From an uncultured Bacteroidota bacterium (GTDB lineage: Bacteria > Bacteroidota > Bacteroidia > Flavobacteriales > Flavobacteriaceae), in assembly GCA_902609035.1 (NCBI GenBank), contig CACLQG010000041.1, forward strand, positions 1-8,878: a stretch of DNA of 8,878 bases, in the 5' to 3' direction. The position numbers were made by a program, and so were the translations under genes. Below, piece by piece: positions 1 to 8,878 of this stretch. The notes beneath the pieces were generated by a model, which searched no databases, was not told the DNA's origin, and saw only the letters and a list, made by a program, of their open reading frames with translations. Positions within the stretch are counted from its first letter, which is position 1. Each line of letters begins with the position of its first letter.

Positions 1-1470
1 GACGGGATTGCCAGAGTTTACGGTCTAACCCATGCTGAATATGGAGAATTGGTAACCTTCGAAAACGGAATGGATGGCATGGTCCTCAACCTAGAAGAGG
101 ACAATGTCGGAGTGGTATTATTAGGGCCCTCCAAAGAAATTAAAGAAGGTAATACAGTAAAGCGAACCAAGAAAATTGCTTCCATCAGTGTAGGTGAAGG
201 TATCGTAGGTAGAGTGGTTGACACTTTGGGAACCCCCATAGATGGAAAAGGACCCATAGAGGGAGAAATTTATCAAATGCCATTGGAAAGAAAAGCTCCA
301 GGGGTAATCTTTAGACAACCAGTAAACGAACCTCTTCAGACTGGAATCAAGTCTATTGACGCCATGATTCCTGTTGGAAGAGGACAAAGGGAATTGGTAA
401 TCGGTGATCGCCAAACGGGAAAAACTACAGTTTGTATCGATACCATTTTGAACCAAAAAGAATTTTTTGATGCGGGTGAACCTGTGTATTGTATCTATGT
501 TGCGATAGGCCAAAAAGCCTCTACCATAGCAGGGATTGCCAAAATATTAGAAGATAAAGGAGCTCTGGACTTCACCACCATAGTTGCCGCCAATGCCTCG
601 GACCCAGCCCCAATGCAAGTATATGCTCCTTTTGCAGGTGCTGCAATTGGGGAATATTTCAGAGATACTGGTCGTCCCGCATTGATTATCTATGATGACC
701 TGTCCAAACAAGCGGTTGCCTATCGTGAGGTATCCCTTTTGCTTCGTCGTCCTCCAGGACGTGAGGCCTACCCAGGGGATGTATTTTACCTTCACTCCAG
801 ATTGCTGGAGCGCGCGGCAAAAGTCATTGCCGATGACGAGATCGCTAAAGGTATGAACGACCTGCCCGAATCTCTAAAGGACAAAGTAAAAGGAGGAGGT
901 TCACTCACCGCCTTGCCCATCATTGAAACCCAAGCGGGAGATGTTTCTGCCTATATACCAACCAACGTAATTTCCATTACAGATGGTCAGATATTTCTGG
1001 AGTCCGATCTCTTCAACTCAGGCGTTCGCCCTGCGATCAACGTAGGAATATCCGTATCTAGGGTAGGAGGGTCAGCACAGATCAAGTCCATGAAAAAAGT
1101 AGCAGGAACACTCAAACTTGACCAAGCCCAGTTCCGGGAACTGGAGGCTTTCGCCAAATTTGGTTCCGATCTTGATGCGGCTACACTCAACGTAATTGAA
1201 AAAGGACGTCGAAATGTGGAAATTCTCAAACAGTCTCAAAATGATCCCTTTACCGTTGAAGAGCAAGTGGCCATTATCTATGTAGGCTCCAAAAATCTTT
1301 TGAGGAAAGTTCCTGTTGAGAAAGTAAAAGAATTTGAAACCGCCTTTTTGAGCACCCTTAAAAAGAAGCACAATAAGGTTTTGGCAGAGCTAAAAGCAGG
1401 GAATATGACTGACAATGTGCTCGACACACTCAATAATTTGTCCGAAGAAACCTCTAAAGTATTTGAATAG
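1..1470 (+). CDS. atpA: F1Fo ATP synthase subunit alpha (5' end cut by window)
   Basis: This is the non-catalytic nucleotide-binding alpha subunit of the F1 head, which alternates with beta around the gamma shaft. The frame is open from base 1 (DGIARVYGL, an N-terminal alpha motif) to a TAG at 1468-1470. It gives 489 residues, so about 35-40 N-terminal residues lie off the left edge. The P-loop GDRQTGKT is at residues 135-142 of the visible part, and the Walker B region [11 protein letters not shown] is at 227-237. The alpha/beta signature [14 protein letters not shown] carries the arginine-finger Arg at about 354. [20 protein letters not shown] is typical of alpha rather than beta. The C-terminal helical domain is complete. 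A TTG at 49 could be mistaken for a start, but the homology runs upstream of it. atpG begins on the base after the stop, in the same frame, so the two should be co-transcribed and possibly translationally coupled. No damage is seen in this gene. Confidence 0.97.
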
Positions 1471-2334
1471 ATGGCCAATCTAAAAGAAATACGGAATCGT
1501 ATTACTTCGGTCTCCTCAACCATGCAGATTACTAGTGCCATGAAAATGGTATCTGCTGCAAAGTTGAAGAAAGCCCAAGAGGCCATCGCCGCCATGCGGC
1601 CTTATGCCAATAAGCTTAAGGAACTCCTTCAAAACTTAAGTGGAGGCCAAGATGGTAGTGGGCAAAACTCCTATACCATTCAACGTTCAGTGAAAAAAAT
1701 TCTCATTATCGCCGTAACCTCCAACAGAGGATTATGCGGAGCCTTCAATACTAATATCATCAAAGAAACCCTTAGGCTTGCCAGAGAGGACTATGCTGGA
1801 AAAACCGTTTAGGTAATGGGAATCGGGAAAAAAGGAGGAGACATTCTCTCCAAAACTCTACCCATCAAAAGTCGTCATGATGCTGTCTATGATGACCTTA
1901 ATTTTGGTAATATTTCTTTTGTAGCCCATCAGGCCATGGAGGCTTTTGCCGAAGGACAGTACGACAAAGTATTGGTGGTTTACAACCGATTTAAAAATGC
2001 CGCCACACAAATTTTGACGACCGAACAATACCTTCCTATCGTCGCGGTAAAAGATGCTACACATGAGTCATCTGCAGATTATATCTACGAACCGTCACAA
2101 GTTGCAATTGTGGATGAGCTCTTGCCCAAATCACTGAAAATGCAACTTTTTAAGGCAGTGAGAGATTCATTTGCCAGTGAGCATGGTGCTCGTATGACAG
2201 CCATGCACAAGGCAACTGACAACGCAACCGAGCTGAGAGATCAACTCAAACTGACTTACAACAAAGCGCGACAGGCTGCCATTACTAATGAGATTTTGGA
2301 AATTGTTGGTGGAGCAGAGGCTTTGAATAATTAG
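1471..2334 (+). pseudogene. atpG: F1Fo ATP synthase subunit gamma, interrupted by an in-frame TAG
   Basis: Gamma is the central rotor shaft of F1. The 288-codon frame starts at ATG 1471 (MANLKEIRNRITSVSSTMQI, the gamma N-terminal helix) and ends with the gamma C-terminal helix (ARQAAITNEILEIVGGAEAL) and TAG 2332-2334. The implied 287 residues match the family's usual length. Codon 114 (1810-1812) is TAG, in the middle of the Rossmann-like domain, between AGKTV and VMGIGKKGGD. Both flanks stay in one frame and align to family expectations, so a single substitution explains it, for example CAG (Gln) to TAG. As written, the sequence yields a 113-residue N-terminal piece. An ATG at 1816, three bases after the stop, could restart a 172-residue C-terminal piece, but no Shine-Dalgarno is visible. 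Gamma is needed for a working ATP synthase, so a base-call error, a strain-specific nonsense mutation, or split or read-through expression are the options. Sequence error is the simplest. Confidence 0.93.
1810..1812 (+). other. Premature in-frame amber codon in atpG
   Basis: TAG lies in frame with both the start (1471) and the end (2334) of atpG, at codon 114 of 288. No insertion or deletion is needed to join the flanks. It is followed by GTA and then ATG (1816), so termination-reinitiation is physically possible. TAG is also the normal stop of atpA, the true end of atpG, the nucleotidyltransferase, envC, the SPOR gene and trpS. This argues against amber being a sense codon in this genome. 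Confidence 0.95.
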
Positions 2335-2506: not shown

Positions 2507-2944
2507 ATGATAGAAATTCCTGTACGCTATTCTGGAGCGGTGGAACTTCTCCAACATGCAACTATGCTTTCTGGAGGAATTGACTTTCGCGCCTTTGTAA
2601 AGGCGCTTGTATCCTTGAATTCCGTAGAGCGTGAATTCATCCCTACCAGCTTGTCTATTGCCTTGTCCGAAGGCTATGAGGCTCAAGTCCGACCTAGAAG
2701 CGGATTGGCCGCAAAAGAAGATACAATTGTTCTCAACCCTCCAGGAACCATTGATACAGATTATCGTGGAGAAATTGGCGTTATACTGTTCAACGTCTCC
2801 CAAGAACCTTTTACCATTTCTCTCCATGATCGAATTGCACAGTTGGTCGTAGCCCAATATGCTACCGTGGAATGGCAAGCCCTAGATACGCTTCCCGAAT
2901 CGGAGAGAGGCATTGAAAAATTTGACAGTTCGGGCAAAAAATAA
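2507..2944 (+). CDS. dut: dUTP diphosphatase (trimeric dUTPase family), motif 5 divergent
   Basis: This enzyme hydrolyses dUTP to dUMP and pyrophosphate in the cytoplasm, supplying dTMP synthesis and keeping uracil out of DNA. The 145-residue product has the usual trimeric dUTPase length. Motif 1 is SGGIDFRA (22-29, Asp26), motif 2 is RPRSGLAAK (62-70), motif 3 is GTIDTDYRGEIGV (80-92, with the water-activating Asp83 and the base-pocket Tyr86), and motif 4 is DRIAQLVV (108-115). Motif 5 near the C terminus is normally RGxGGFGSTG. Here it is RGIEKFDSSGKK: Arg134, Phe139, Ser141 and Gly143 are kept, but the glycine-rich character is lost (I, E, K and D in glycine-rich positions). This flexible arm closes over the triphosphate, so activity may be altered, although the catalytic core is intact. 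The start is ATG 2507, with MIEIPVRY aligning to family N termini. It lies upstream of the nucleotidyltransferase with a 37-base gap and may share transcription with it. Confidence 0.9.
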   Translation: MIEIPVRYSGAVELLQHATMLSGGIDFRAFVKALVSLNSVEREFIPTSLSIALSEGYEAQVRPRSGLAAKEDTIVLNPPGTIDTDYRGEIGVILFNVSQEPFTISLHDRIAQLVVAQYATVEWQALDTLPESERGIEKFDSSGKK

Positions 2945-2981: not shown

Positions 2982-3998
2982 TTGAAAATAATTGTTCCCA
3001 TGGCGGGGAGAGGCTCACGACTCAGACCACACAGCCTTACCATTCCAAAGCCCATGCTGCCTGTTGCCGGATCGCCTATCGTTGCCCAATTGGTCAACGA
3101 AATTGCACGAGTAGTGGCACAACCAATAGAGGAGATAGCCTACATCTTGGGTGATCCCGTATTTTTTGGCCCTTCTAATGAGGAAGAACTTACACAAGTG
3201 GCACAAGACCTAGGTGCCAAAACCTCTATTTACCGACAGTCGGAACCCCTTGGAACTGGACATGCTGTGATGTGTGCCGCCGATTCCTTATCTGGACCTA
3301 TAATCGTGGCCTATGCCGATACCCTCATCCGTACCGATTTATCCCTTGATCCCACTGTAGACGGAATGATCTGGGTAAAGCAAGTAGAAAACCCCAAAGC
3401 ATATGGGGTGGTTAAAATGAATCAAGACAATCACATCACAGCTTTGGTCGAAAAGCCTGAGGAATTTGTCTCCGACTTGGCAGTTATCGGGATATACTAC
3501 TTTAAAGAAGGCGAAGTCATCAGGGCTCAATTGGATAAAAGCATGGCCCTTGCACTAGATAAAGGCGAGGAATTTTTATTAAATGAAGGGATATTAGCGA
3601 TGATGGAAAAGGGCGCAGTTTTTACCCCTGGAGCGGTCAAAGAATGGATGGACTGTGGGAACCCCAAAATCACCTTAGAAACCAATAGAAAAATGCTAGA
3701 AATCCTTACCAAAGAGGGTAATAAATTGGTGGCTGACGATGTTATATTAGAAAATAGTAAGATCATACCTCCCTGTTCCATTGCATCTGGGGTGGTCTTA
3801 AAAAATGCTATTGTTGGCCCCCATTCTGCTATTGGAGAGGGCACCCGTATCGAGAACAGTAATGTAAGCAGTAGTTTGGTGCAAAAACACAGCCTCATTA
3901 TAAACTCCCAACTCGAGGGCGCTATGATTGGGAACCATGTGCATTATGATGGAAAACATAAATTTGTCAACATTGGGGACTATTCAGAATTGTCATAG
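2982..3998 (+). CDS. Sugar-phosphate nucleotidyltransferase with C-terminal beta-helix repeats
   Basis: A 338-residue member of the NTP-transferase family, which joins a sugar 1-phosphate to an NTP to make an NDP-sugar and pyrophosphate. The N terminus KIIVPMAGRGSRLRP (about 2-16) is the nucleotide-binding loop GxGxRLRP, followed by the conserved PKP with Lys23. EPLGTGHA (88-95) and VAYADT with the probable metal-binding Asp113 follow, then VEKPEEF near 150 and EWMDCGNP near 220. From about residue 250 the sequence shows hexapeptide-like repeats (VILENSKIIPPCSIASGVVL, then AIVGPHSAIGEG), typical of a left-handed beta-helix. The start is TTG at 2982, chosen because KIIVPMAGRG is the standard N terminus and a start at the internal ATG (residue 7) would remove part of the nucleotide loop. 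The sugar and base used cannot be told from sequence. It is followed after 2 bases by the DUF4292 gene, implying an operon, and envelope polysaccharide synthesis is a reasonable guess. Confidence 0.88.
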   Translation: MKIIVPMAGRGSRLRPHSLTIPKPMLPVAGSPIVAQLVNEIARVVAQPIEEIAYILGDPVFFGPSNEEELTQVAQDLGAKTSIYRQSEPLGTGHAVMCAADSLSGPIIVAYADTLIRTDLSLDPTVDGMIWVKQVENPKAYGVVKMNQDNHITALVEKPEEFVSDLAVIGIYYFKEGEVIRAQLDKSMALALDKGEEFLLNEGILAMMEKGAVFTPGAVKEWMDCGNPKITLETNRKMLEILTKEGNKLVADDVILENSKIIPPCSIASGVVLKNAIVGPHSAIGEGTRIENSNVSSSLVQKHSLIINSQLEGAMIGNHVHYDGKHKFVNIGDYSELS

Positions 3999-4000
3999 CC

Positions 4001-4792
4001 ATGAAAAAAAACTGCAAGGCATTTAAATTCGTTAATCTCCTTTTAATTTGGATAATACTGGTATTTGCTGCATGTAAATCTCCATTATTACCATCGAGCA
4101 GGACCCCCATGAAAAACATTGAAACCAATGACTTGACCAAATCCATTTCCAAAAAACAATTGGAGTACAAGAAATTTCGTTCTCGTGTAAAAACAACTTA
4201 TGACGATGGTAAAAGAAAACAACAGATTATCATCAATCTGCGCATGGAAAAATCCAAATCCATATGGATGAGCGCCAATATGATCGTGCCCATTGCCAAA
4301 CTATTGGTCACACCCGATAAGGTCTCCTTTTATGAAAAGTTTCAAAAAACTTTTTTTGAGGGTGATGTTTCTTTTATCAACCGACAGTTTAACACCAGCT
4401 TTGAATTTAAAGATCTTCAAAATCTATTAATGGGTCTTCCTTTAACTGACATTAAAAGGGGGAGATGGGAAACCGTCTCCCACCCAAAATATTATATTTT
4501 GACACCAAAGTCTAAAAAACTCCGGTTTCGTCCCACTTTCTTTTTTGACCCTAATAACTTTTTATTGCTGGAGCAACGATTTATAGTACCGGGGACGCAA
4601 CAAAATTTGACCATCAAATATCTGAATCATCAAAAATTGGAGGGGGAATTTGTCCCCGGGGAAGTACAAATTTCTTTGTTTGACGGGAGAAATTTAAAGC
4701 GTGTTAACTTGGAGTATACCCGTGCCGATTTTCCCGATCGCATTAGTATTCCCTTTGACATTCCTTCAGGCTACGAACAAATTGAAATGTAA
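4001..4792 (+). CDS. DUF4292-type lipoprotein
   Basis: A 263-residue predicted envelope lipoprotein resembling the flavobacterial DUF4292 family, whose role is not established; family members recall the LolA/LolB type of beta-rich fold. A basic N terminus (KK, K) and a hydrophobic stretch (residues 10-24) end in FAAC with Cys25 as the probable lipidated residue. The -3 residue is Phe, which is off consensus. Lys26-Ser27 follow rather than an acidic export signal, which would suit a periplasm-facing anchor. The middle (about 55-110) alternates charged and hydrophobic strands, including SIWMSANMIVPIAKLLVTPD, then FEGDVSFINRQF, and the C-terminal half is rich in beta-strand patterns. It starts 2 bases after the nucleotidyltransferase stop, and its TAA overlaps the envC ATG by one base, so translation is probably coupled to envC. 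Co-transcription with envC points to cell-wall or outer-membrane upkeep. Confidence 0.75.
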   Translation: MKKNCKAFKFVNLLLIWIILVFAACKSPLLPSSRTPMKNIETNDLTKSISKKQLEYKKFRSRVKTTYDDGKRKQQIIINLRMEKSKSIWMSANMIVPIAKLLVTPDKVSFYEKFQKTFFEGDVSFINRQFNTSFEFKDLQNLLMGLPLTDIKRGRWETVSHPKYYILTPKSKKLRFRPTFFFDPNNFLLLEQRFIVPGTQQNLTIKYLNHQKLEGEFVPGEVQISLFDGRNLKRVNLEYTRADFPDRISIPFDIPSGYEQIEM

Positions 4793-6012
4793 TGCACCGC
4801 TTAAGACAGCTCTGTATAATTTTTTTACTTTCTTTCAATTCATTTTGTATGGCGCAGTCAAATTCGGCCCGCCAGAAAACATTGGAAATACAGAAAAAGC
4901 GTCTTCAAGCGGAGATCAAACAAATCAATTCTTTACTTTTTAAAAATACCAAACAAGAAAAATCTGTCCTTTCTCAGGTCGAGGACCTCAATGTCAAAAT
5001 ATTGGTAAGAACTGACTTGGTCAAAGTCAACAAACAGCAGGCCAACCTCCTCATACTGCAAATCAATGTTAACCAAAGAAACATTACCAATTTTAGAAAA
5101 GAGCTTGAGATTCTTAAGAAAGACTATGCCGAAATGATCCGAAAATCCTACAAGAGTAAATCCGCTCAAAATCGATTGATGTTTTTGTTTTCTTCCGATG
5201 ACTTTTTACAGGCCTATAAGCGGATTCAGTATATTAAACAATATACGAACTACAGGAAAAAACAGGGGGAACAAATTGCCGAGAAAACCAAAACCTTACA
5301 GTCGCTCAATAAAAATCTTTTAGAGCAAAAAGCTCAAAAAGAGGGTTTGGCATTGGAAAACCAAAAGATGCAAGAGCAATTACAGCAGGAGCGAAAATCG
5401 CAGCAAAGACTCATCCGAAGTCTAAAAAATAAATCGCGATCTCTGGCAGGTGAGATCAAACAAAAGCAACGCAAAGCACTGGCCATTGACCGAGAAATTG
5501 AACGCTTAATACGTGAGGCCATTGCCGCCTCTAATAAAGCTGCTGGGAAAAAGTCAAATAACGCTTTTGCTCTTACTCCTGAAGCTAAAAAATTGGCCTC
5601 CAATTTTGTGGCAAACAAGGGGAAACTCCCTTGGCCGGTAGAGAAGGGATTTGTTATACAGCGCTTTGGTATGCAACCCCACCCTGTGGTTAAGACCACC
5701 ATGATCAAGAGCAATGGAGTGACCATAGCTACCACCCCTAGAGCAGAGGCTAGAGCTGTCTTTGAAGGGGAGGTAATGACCATTCTCAGTTTTAAGGGCA
5801 GTAACCCTACCATACTGATCAAACACGGCAATTTTATAACCACCTATAAGAACATGGGGAGAGTCTATGTCAAAAAGGGAGACAAGGTCAGGGCAAAACA
5901 GCCAATAGGGGAAATCTTCACCCATCCTCAGACAGGCAAAACAGCCCTACAATTCAGTGTATTTAACGAATTGAGGCCTCAAAATCCAAAAAGTTGGATT
6001 TTCAGAATGTAG
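4792..6012 (+). CDS. EnvC-like murein hydrolase activator with degenerate LytM (M23) domain
   Basis: A 406-residue exported protein. Residues 1-22 form a signal peptide ending at MAQ. Residues about 24-245 are a long charged coiled coil (KTLEIQKKRLQAEIKQINSL onwards), including a segment like the FtsX-contacting hook of EnvC (YAEMIRKSYKSKSAQNRLMF). Residues about 280-406 are a LytM/M23 fold. The zinc-ligand positions are lost: HxGxD reads SNGVT (307-311), the Tyr-x-His position reads YKN (352-354), and HxH reads ALQ (385-387). It should therefore not be a peptidase but an activator of amidases during cell separation, as known for EnvC and NlpD. It is often annotated simply as peptidase M23. 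The ATG overlaps the DUF4292 stop by one base. The stop lies one base from the stop of the convergent SPOR gene, another peptidoglycan-related gene. What it activates here is unknown; that it activates an amidase is inferred from the family. Confidence 0.87.
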   Translation: MHRLRQLCIIFLLSFNSFCMAQSNSARQKTLEIQKKRLQAEIKQINSLLFKNTKQEKSVLSQVEDLNVKILVRTDLVKVNKQQANLLILQINVNQRNITNFRKELEILKKDYAEMIRKSYKSKSAQNRLMFLFSSDDFLQAYKRIQYIKQYTNYRKKQGEQIAEKTKTLQSLNKNLLEQKAQKEGLALENQKMQEQLQQERKSQQRLIRSLKNKSRSLAGEIKQKQRKALAIDREIERLIREAIAASNKAAGKKSNNAFALTPEAKKLASNFVANKGKLPWPVEKGFVIQRFGMQPHPVVKTTMIKSNGVTIATTPRAEARAVFEGEVMTILSFKGSNPTILIKHGNFITTYKNMGRVYVKKGDKVRAKQPIGEIFTHPQTGKTALQFSVFNELRPQNPKSWIFRM

Positions 6013-6013
6013 G

Positions 6014-7009
6014 CTAGTACTCCTCCAAGTACCACGCCTCCTCTTTAAGGGCAAAACGGATGTAGTTGTGGAGGTTCAATGCTTCACGTTTTGAAGAGAA
6101 TCGACCATAAGCCACACGATGAAGTCCCTCGGGATTTACCTCTGTAAAGGCAGCATCAAAACCTTCGGCTTGAAGTTGTGCCAATCGTTTTTCGGCATTA
6201 TCCATTGATCGGTAGGAGCCGGCAATTACACTGTAAAATATTTCATCCAAAGGAGCAACCTCGAGCATTTCAGGGTAGGCTTCCAAGTCCAAATCGACTT
6301 GTGCCAATGTCCCCAAATCAAATGTCGCTTTCTGTACATTGTTTTTAATTTTCTTTTGAGCGATCTGAGTAGCCTTTGCTTTCTCGCTGGCCACATATTG
6401 ATCTCCAAAGTAGTATAACGCACCAATTAAGGAAATCCCAATTACACCAATGATAACAAAGCGTAAAATGGGTGATCGCTTAGTTTGGTTTTCATCTTTA
6501 GTTTCGTTTTCTGTGGGGGTAAACATTAAGTCGTCTTTATTTTTATTATCCATGACGGGAACGGGTTTAGGTTTTTCAATATTTATGGGTGGGGGATTTA
6601 TAGATTTTCTAATAAAACTTCCTAATCCATAGGAGCTCAGGTCAAAATTAACTTCTCCAAAAGGAGAAAAGTTAATTTTCTTTTGCTGGTTAAGACGTAT
6701 TTCTCCAATTCCTGCAAAAGTCAAGTGCTGGGTGTTTAGTCGCTGTTTCCATACGATCACTTCTTTTTCTATTCTCCTCAAGGCCTGTTCGAAGGAGAGA
6801 TTATCTCTTTGCGCCATATAATGCGCCAGTATTCCATCATTGCTTTTTAGGAGGTGGTTAAAACTCACCTCTTTACGAGGAGGGTTAAAAACACCCGTTT
6901 CGGCTCGTATCAGTACATTGACCTTACGGGTAAGAAAAGCACCAAAATTTGGTACCGTAACACACTCATGTTGGTAAAGTAATTCTTTAATGTACTGCTG
7001 CAATGGCAT
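6014..7009 (-). CDS. HU-CCDC81 / SPOR domain membrane protein
   Basis: A 331-residue protein with the layout common in Bacteroidota. Two N-terminal HU-CCDC81-type domains (about 1-60, MPLQQYIKELLYQHECVTVP then NFGAFL; and about 62-120, including LTFAGIGEIRLN) are followed by a Pro/Lys/Asn/Glu-rich linker. A single membrane helix lies at about 182-201 (LRFVIIGVIGISLIGALYYF), then an extracytoplasmic linker and a C-terminal SPOR domain (about 257-328, FYSVIAGSYRSMDNAEKRL). SPOR domains bind glycan strands lacking stem peptides, which are made at the septum by amidases, while the HU-like part would sit in the cytoplasm. I chose ATG 7009 because MPLQQYIKELL is the normal family start. An in-frame TTG at 7024 would overlap the promoter motif and add LLYLN. 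Convergent with envC, with one base between stops. Confidence 0.9.
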   Translation of the reverse strand: MPLQQYIKELLYQHECVTVPNFGAFLTRKVNVLIRAETGVFNPPRKEVSFNHLLKSNDGILAHYMAQRDNLSFEQALRRIEKEVIVWKQRLNTQHLTFAGIGEIRLNQQKKINFSPFGEVNFDLSSYGLGSFIRKSINPPPINIEKPKPVPVMDNKNKDDLMFTPTENETKDENQTKRSPILRFVIIGVIGISLIGALYYFGDQYVASEKAKATQIAQKKIKNNVQKATFDLGTLAQVDLDLEAYPEMLEVAPLDEIFYSVIAGSYRSMDNAEKRLAQLQAEGFDAAFTEVNPEGLHRVAYGRFSSKREALNLHNYIRFALKEEAWYLEEY

Positions 7010-7012
7010 ATT

Positions 7013-7020
7013 CAAATATA
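7013..7020 (-). promoter_or_regulatory. Candidate -7 element for the SPOR gene, implying a leaderless or near-leaderless mRNA
   Basis: On the minus strand TATATTTG matches TAnnTTTG exactly and ends only three bases before the ATG at 7009. If used, transcription would start on or just inside the ATG. No good -33 TTTG is seen upstream, and AT-rich sequence makes chance matches common. Confidence 0.35.
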
Positions 7021-7076
7021 ACAATATTTATTACCTTTAATAACGATGAATATTTATGTTAGTATATTTAGTGGCG

Positions 7077-7117
7077 TCTAAATTTTTTAGATCATTGTCC
7101 ATGGACTGCCCTAGGGC
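7077..7117. repeat. Cluster of three adjacent perfect palindromes
   Basis: TCTAAA-TTT-TTTAGA (7077-7091), GTCCATGGAC (7097-7106) and GCCCTAGGGC (7108-7117) lie side by side. The last two are separated by one base and are GC-rich islands in very AT-rich sequence. They sit about 70-110 bases upstream of the SPOR gene start. They could be operator-like or simple cruciform-forming sites; no hairpin-plus-T-tract arrangement fits a terminator. Confidence 0.5.
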
Positions 7118-7278
7118 CTATTGATTTTGTTTTTTATTGATGGATTGGGTAATTTCTTTGCCAAAAAAATTATGGAAATTTTGCAGTATCATGAGCCAAT
7201 TTTAAGGGAATTATTAGAATTTCATCAACATACAATGTATTTATACTATTTATAATAATAAATTGAACTTGAAAAAAA

Positions 7279-7401
7279 TTAGGATATGGTGTAGCTAGAA
7301 GAGGAAACCTTCTCAAAAACCAAATTATAATCCTCTTTCTCGATGATGCGTAATTTTTCATAATACAATCCTTTCGTCCAGATGCCCTCTTTAGTGAAGG
7401 T
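7279..7401 (-). pseudogene. C-terminal fragment of an unidentified protein
   Basis: On the minus strand a 40-residue reading, TFTKEGIWTKGLYYEKLRII followed by EKEDYNLVFEKVSSSSYTIS, ends at TAA (7281-7279). Its composition (Glu/Lys-rich, regular strand-like pattern) is much more protein-like than the other frames here. It is preceded by an in-frame TAA at 7404-7402, and upstream of that the same frame stays open to about 7566 (HQLGQSFLKIKSLDHKRIMV) without recognisable similarity. I cannot name the family. Best read as the surviving tail of a lost gene; it could also be chance. Confidence 0.4.
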
Positions 7402-7468
7402 TTAAAAGGGGAAGATTAGTTTAGGATAGTGGAAACTTATAACCATTATGCGTTTATGATCTAGCGAC

Positions 7469-8113
7469 TTGATTTTTAAAAAACTCTGCCCTAGCTGGTG
7501 GCAGATTTGCAGGGAATCTATTCCATTATTATTTTTATTGCCACTTAGGACCGACATCTTCGCTCAAGATCGAGCGCTCAAGTCGAATTTAAATACTATT
7601 GCTAGTATGGAGCACGCGCTAAATCAAATTTGTCAACTTAAACGTATTGGATATGCAGATCCAGTAAAATAAAAAGTCGGCTTGGTCTCAGAATTTATCA
7701 ATGCAGAAATATTTGACCGAAAACACTTTCTGGTCCACAATTGACTATAATGTGATTGTCTCAAGCCCCAGTTATCAGTTAATTCAAATTAAAAGGGAAC
7801 AGTATTATCAATGTGAGTTTTACATATCATTACAATCGGGATTTATTTAATAACCCCCACGATTTGTTAAGTTCTTTTCACCAATGTTGTTATGCATTGA
7901 TTCAAATACAAAACGCAATTAATTTCTTGGGCGAAGGATTCTGGCAATAGCTAGGGCTGGACCCCTGAACCGATTAGTTAGTGCGTTCAAAAAAAGTTAT
8001 TTGTAAAACTTTCACCAGCGGAAAATCCTTTTTCGACTGTCTTAAAACAATACCCTATGAAAGGTTACGTAAAACCTATTACTGGGGAGTTTTTTGTGGA
8101 TCTAAAATCCTAG
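7469..8113 (+). pseudogene. Broken gene for an unidentified, possibly exported protein of about 210 residues
   Basis: Four coding-like pieces follow each other in order on one strand but in different frames. Frame 2 (7469-7669) has a hydrophobic stretch IPLLFLLPLRTDIFAQ, like a signal peptide ending in Ala-Gln, then ALNQICQLKRIGYADPVK. Frame 3 (7668-7847) reads MQKYLTENTFWSTIDYNVIV. Frame 1 (7783-7947) reads NVSFTYHYNRDLFNNPHDLL and then LIQIQNAINFLGEGFW. Frame 2 again (7955-8110, with a TAG at 7979) reads KLFVKLSPAENPFSTVLKQY and ends GEFFVDLKS with TAG 8111-8113. Joining them needs at least three frame changes and one or two stop repairs. Shift points fall near A-rich runs (about 7665-7675, 7788-7796), as expected for indel decay. 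The last bases overlap the trpS 3' end. I do not recognise the family. Dense damage argues against a live gene and against simple sequencing error. Confidence 0.45.
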
Positions 8114-8878
8114 CTTTCTCCGAACCCTAAGCAGTACATCATCGGCTATCTTGCTTGCTCTAACCGCGCCTTTAGCGAGAGTGACTTCAACCTCTTGTGG
8201 ATTTTCGCTGAAATAATTGAACTTCGCTCGTTCTACTTTAAATTTCTCCACGATCAATTCAAATAAGGCCTGCTTGGCATGACCATAGCCCATACCTCCT
8301 CCTAAATATTGTTTTTTCAAATTTTCTATTTGATCTGGGGTTCCCAGAAGCGAGAATATCTTAAAGATATTACAGCTTTCTGGGTATTTGCGCTCCTCTA
8401 TGGTTTTGCTATCGGTCTGAATACCCATTATCTGTTTGAGAAGGGCCTTTTCAGGGAGAAAAATATTAATAAAGTTGTTTTTGGATTTGGACATTTTGTT
8501 TCCGTCCGTTCCGATGATGGACTGTGTATTCTCTTGAATTTTTGCCTTTGGTAATAAAAAAGTTTCCCCCATCTGGTGGTTAAACCGTGCTGCCACATCT
8601 CGAGTCATTTCCAAGTGCTGTAATTGGTCTTTTCCTACAGGGACCACTTCAGCATCGTAGATCAAAATATCGGCAGCCATCAACATTGGATAGGTAAATA
8701 GACCGGCGTTGACATCTTCGAGCTGATTGGCCTTATCTTTAAAAGAATGGGCAAGGTTAAGGCGCTGGTAGGGATAAAAACAATTCAGGAACCATGCGAG
8801 TTCAGTCACTTGACTTACATCACTCTGGCGGTAAAAGACGGTTTTTTCTGTATCCAAACCACAGGCGAGCCATGCAGC
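8102..8878 (-). CDS. trpS: Tryptophanyl-tRNA synthetase (5' end cut by window)
   Basis: A class I aminoacyl-tRNA synthetase that charges tRNA-Trp with tryptophan. The frame is open to the right edge (AAWLACGLDTEKTVFYRQSD), giving 258 visible residues; roughly 60-65 N-terminal residues, including the HIGH-type motif, lie outside. Family landmarks are ELAWFLNCFYPYQRL, LAHSFKDKANQLEDVNAGLF, MAADILIYDAEVVPVGKDQL (tryptophan pocket region), and the ATP-binding GNKMSKSKN with KMSKS at visible residues 128-132. The C terminus RVRRKLGF ends at TAG (8104-8102), a usual ending for this family. A TTG near 8857 is internal, not the start. It is convergent with the decayed plus-strand gene, whose stop lies inside its last codons. 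No damage is seen. Confidence 0.96.
   Translation of the reverse strand, partial: AAWLACGLDTEKTVFYRQSDVSQVTELAWFLNCFYPYQRLNLAHSFKDKANQLEDVNAGLFTYPMLMAADILIYDAEVVPVGKDQLQHLEMTRDVAARFNHQMGETFLLPKAKIQENTQSIIGTDGNKMSKSKNNFINIFLPEKALLKQIMGIQTDSKTIEERKYPESCNIFKIFSLLGTPDQIENLKKQYLGGGMGYGHAKQALFELIVEKFKVERAKFNYFSENPQEVEVTLAKGAVRASKIADDVLLRVRRKLGF

Follow-up and report, generated by a model that had tools for sequence, protein, structure and literature searches.

A single in-frame amber codon in atpG, the ATP synthase gamma subunit gene, in a sequence from an uncultured flavobacterium

An amber codon lies inside the reading frame of atpG in the DNA of an uncultured flavobacterium, which raises the question of whether it is a wrong base in an assembled sequence, a real loss of the gamma subunit of ATP synthase, or a sign that this protein is made in two pieces or by read-through. 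The window (the whole stretch of DNA that was analyzed, a single assembled sequence of 8,878 nucleotides) contains the following features.

1..1470, forward strand: atpA, F1 alpha subunit, 3' part (5' end cut by the window); TIGR00962, 735 bits
1471..1812, forward strand: N-terminal piece of atpG, 113 amino acids plus TAG; PF00231 profile positions 1-103
1810..1812, forward strand: in-frame TAG, codon 114; Glu, Asp, Ser, or other sense codons in relatives
1816..2334, forward strand: C-terminal piece of atpG, 172 amino acids from ATG 1816; PF00231 profile positions 116-285
2507..2944, forward strand: dut, an open and fast-changing frame
2982..3998: nucleotidyltransferase gene
4001..4792: LolB1-type lipoprotein gene
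4792..6012: M23 peptidase gene
6014..7024, reverse strand: HU-CCDC81/SPOR gene
7121..8095, forward strand: dprA remnant between the HU-CCDC81/SPOR gene and trpS, located by tblastn
8102..8878, reverse strand: trpS, 3' part

The interrupted gene

By direct reading, the bases around positions 1801-1821 are AAA ACC GTT TAG GTA ATG GGA. The atpG frame runs from ATG 1471 to TAG 2332-2334 (287 codons), the TAG at 1810-1812 is its codon 114, and no further in-frame stop precedes the end of the gene anywhere in the frame 1471-2334. In the list of open reading frames the gene is split into 1471-1812 (113 amino acids) and 1816-2334 (172 amino acids), and both pieces match PF00231 (length 285), at profile positions 1-103 and 116-285, each above the 39.9-bit cut-off. 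Direct reading, the open reading frames, and the profile matches to both pieces thus confirm the original prediction that a single amber codon at position 114 splits atpG. A lone stop in a conserved frame of 287 codons indicates an interrupted gene and not a chance open reading frame.

The gene resembles known F1-ATP synthase gamma genes (PF00231, TIGR01146) in its sequence, its length, both of its ends, and its position in the atp operon, with atpA (1-1470) ending directly before ATG 1471. It differs from them by one in-frame TAG at codon 114, which interrupts a frame that is uninterrupted in relatives. A search of the window against Rfam returned no matches.

Codon 114 and constraint on gamma in relatives

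A protein cluster with 99% identity over the C-terminal piece (P0002, 287 amino acids, found on 12 contigs, the longest 79833 in length) is intact and has Glu at residue 114, and the Glu codon of relatives becomes TAG in a single-base step. Over the whole of gamma, the window and P0002 differ at seven residues (12, 37, 60, 63, 114, 153, and 193, with the stop at 114); at residues 12, 37, 60, and 193 the window departs from the residue common to 83-99% of 111 other sequences. P0002 also matches, by sequence, 50 distinct solved gamma sequences.

Residue 114 is Glu in 107 and Lys in 4 of the 111 other full-length sequences in the protein alignment. At the DNA level, a gamma match was present in 110 loci, one of which (L100) holds only the 3' end and was left out; codon 114 is covered by the other 109 and is a stop in none of them, the residue encoded being D (51 loci), E (31), S (19), H (5), N (1), A (1), or K (1). 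These 109 loci include repeated genomes and correspond to 95 distinct DNA sequences. The nearest named locus is L001, and of 22 genomes from its genus, 20 have one gamma gene each (19 full-length, 1 partial), with neither an internal stop nor a second gamma copy in any of the 20, and two (G012 and G023) gave no gamma match. The earlier suggestion that the strain might have another source of gamma is therefore unsupported by its relatives. The nearest genome compared at the DNA level (G014) shares 91% identity with the window over positions 1-2355 and ∼84-85% over most of the rest. In its locus (L102), 442 of 16001 bases are scattered Ns, and codon comparison with this genome is limited accordingly.

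To ask whether the genes around the stop look functional, residues unique to one sequence at otherwise invariant columns were counted; the window has 5 of these in atpA (1-6 in relatives) and 4 in atpG (1-10 in relatives). The window branch of atpG carries 11 synonymous and 13 nonsynonymous changes versus 5 and 6 on the sister (G014) branch (Fisher p = 1.0), in counts that leave 37 differing codons unpolarised and that lack 11 G014 codons because of N bases. In a leave-one-out count for atpG the window scores 1; across 113 rows, the score is 0 in 83, 1 in 20, and 2-4 in 10. These values bear out the claim that there is no other decay in atpA or atpG. Three candidate descriptions were rejected: relaxed constraint on atpG, as replacements are not in excess on its window branch; a generally error-rich contig, on the atpA counts above; and an atpG pseudogene with several disabling changes or relaxed constraint, as there is one stop only and the branch balance is that of the sister.

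We also analyzed whether other database sequences share the split. Among 120 listed matches to the C-terminal piece, three are 172 amino acids long (P0001, P0003, and P0046). P0001 is the window's own C-terminal piece, in a cluster of 3 member sequences, and P0046 lies on a 599-base contig that has no room for the N-terminal piece, which points to a contig-end effect. P0003 is a second 172-amino acid gamma C-terminal piece, with 95% identity, on a 970-base contig; it may reflect a contig end or another interruption. N-terminal pieces of 113 amino acids were absent from the 120 listed of 2410 matches, and this absence is weak evidence because the window's own N-terminal piece is also missing among the matches listed. 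Three 114-amino acid N-terminal pieces from diverged kin, which end one codon later, are not a clear excess among the 120 listed.

Base error or recent null allele as possible causes, and gene erosion nearby

These results make a base error or a rare broken copy the most probable account of the stop, ahead of a new kind of gene. Within this description we lean, with middling confidence, toward a base that is wrong in this assembled sequence alone, with a true mutation as the alternative. An error in the consensus or in the template would yield TAG at 1810-1812, and the gamma subunit of the organism itself would be ordinary and free of interruption. A cell would be expected to pay heavily for losing gamma, so a stop in such a gene, with no other damage, looks like a base error. 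Consistent with this, the intact P0002 has at residue 114 a codon one base away from TAG, a stop at codon 114 is absent from all 109 loci and the 20 genus gamma matches are stop-free, atpA and the remainder of atpG resemble working genes, and no 113-amino acid N-terminal piece occurs among the 120 relatives listed. Draft metagenome contigs carry errors in consensus bases as well as nonsense alleles that arise by a single base change; the window resembles both, with a lone stop, a single base from the codon of relatives, in a gene that is otherwise undamaged, and its TAG shows no distinguishing feature. The stop itself is an ordinary, already-known kind of event.

Several observations speak against this reading. 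By the atpA counts, the contig as a whole is not rich in errors, gamma has six further residue differences from P0002, four of them at widely shared residues, the P0001 cluster has three members, and P0003 is another C-terminal piece of the same length. In addition, the same window contains a dead dprA and a decaying dut, so this lineage does lose genes.

The dprA remnant (7121-8095) contains many stops and was recognized with the DprA protein of a genus relative, G019 (tblastn, 30.7% identity over 355 columns, E 1.4e-29). This gene is broken in G014 and G011 and intact in G001, G015, and G019. Across the 22 genus genomes, dprA was above the cut-off in 8 (one with an internal TGA), present as fragments in 2, and without a match in 12, where some of the absences perhaps reflect incomplete genomes. 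A literature search found no account of a published dprA pseudogene in Flavobacteriaceae.

The dut frame has 16 unique residues at columns that are invariant in the eight relatives compared, which themselves have 0-3. On its window branch there are 6 synonymous and 25 nonsynonymous changes. This balance differs from that of the other seven genes pooled (p = 0.0014), and its difference from the sister branch is marginal (p = 0.049). The changes hit conserved columns, as in the replacement of GGFG by EKFD near the C terminus. The window's dut protein is present on 2 contigs, and six near relatives (P0242-P0247) show varied decay, with 11-22 of 65 conserved columns changed, compared with 10 in the window. 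The other 113 listed dut sequences depart at 0.42 of these 65 columns on average (maximum 4), a low value that arises partly by construction, because conservation in those 113 was the basis for choosing the columns. The recurrence of decay in six other clusters indicates that the contig is biologically faithful at dut. A single dUTPase match was found in 21 of the 22 genus genomes, so replacement of dut is not obvious. Together, the dead dprA and the decaying dut indicate that the lineage is really losing genes, which makes a real atpG allele somewhat more probable without showing the allele itself.

A real, recent null allele is accordingly a possibility that we hold tentatively. In this case gamma would be truncated, F1 would not assemble as a rotary motor, and ATP synthase coupling would be missing from the cell, or from a small fraction of cells bound to die out. 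The decay of dprA and dut in the lineage, and a contig true to biology at dut, favor such an allele. Lowered gamma is also tolerated in some bacteria, as a report on Clostridium acetobutylicum describes normal growth upon atpG knockdown (PMC8573202). Against a null allele, atpA is without decay, the window branch of atpG has no excess of replacements (11 synonymous and 13 nonsynonymous versus 5 and 6), and the frame is open in every genus relative with a gamma match. C. acetobutylicum, moreover, is a fermenter, while nothing in the window points to fermentation. AtpG changes in Klebsiella appear as substitutions in the table of another report and as nonsense changes in its discussion (PMC8612250); because these two parts of the report disagree, it was not used as a precedent. 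No account of a premature stop codon in a metagenomic atpG was found in the literature search.

The original prediction favored an error or a very recent mutation. This is the best-fitting account, given the intact, near-identical P0002, the normal atpA, and the balanced atpG branch. The prediction made no mention of the decay of dprA and dut in the same window. A real stop would mean an uncultured strain in nature whose ATP synthase rotor is either not intact or split; the likelier lesson at present concerns how accurate single bases are in draft contigs. The decay seen in dprA and dut is real in the lineage and makes a more solid biological point than the stop in atpG.

Possible split expression or read-through, and viral matches

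Translation might instead stop at the TAG and restart at ATG 1816, with the two pieces assembling around the rotor axis; two-piece expression was raised in the original prediction, and we judge it unlikely. ATG 1816 follows the TAG after one codon, without a change of frame, and the C-terminal piece that begins there is open for 172 amino acids. A gamma subunit cut at residue 114 would keep its terminal helices intact on separate chains, and a low-confidence structure model agrees with this arrangement. The Met encoded at 1816 (M116), however, is present without exception in the 19 full-length sequences aligned, which makes it a conserved, ordinary internal Met and not a new start. The cut also falls inside a predicted strand (residues 112-119) of the globular domain in this model (mean pLDDT 43.8, ∼58-60 locally), and no conserved split is seen at the site, given the lack of 113-amino acid N-terminal pieces, and of a clear excess of 114-amino acid ones, among the 120 listed. 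That a working two-piece gamma is made by restart at ATG 1816 in a flavobacterial lineage eroding housekeeping genes is, in our estimate, very improbable.

Read-through or reassignment of TAG, which would give full-length gamma from a frame that is open and conserved past the stop, is the least credible explanation, as TAG ends 6 of the 8 genes that end in the window as well as atpG itself in 46 of 109 relative loci, prfA (RF1) is above its curated cut-off in 18 of the 22 genus genomes, and no tRNA gene was found within the window. In addition, the TAG of atpA adjoins the ATG of atpG in the same frame (1468-1473), so any efficient read-through would produce an alpha-gamma fusion. Reassignment of TAG is therefore unlikely, the frequency of TAG as a gene end in the window and the presence of RF1 in genus relatives speak against TAG as a sense codon, and read-through expression, also raised in the original prediction, is disfavored.

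Among viral contigs, three stretches fit a pattern and none of them encodes a relative. When window positions 6900-8878 were compared with a phage collection in a distant mode, there was a single match (70% over 165 bases, to an unannotated record), and it lies inside the coordinates of trpS.
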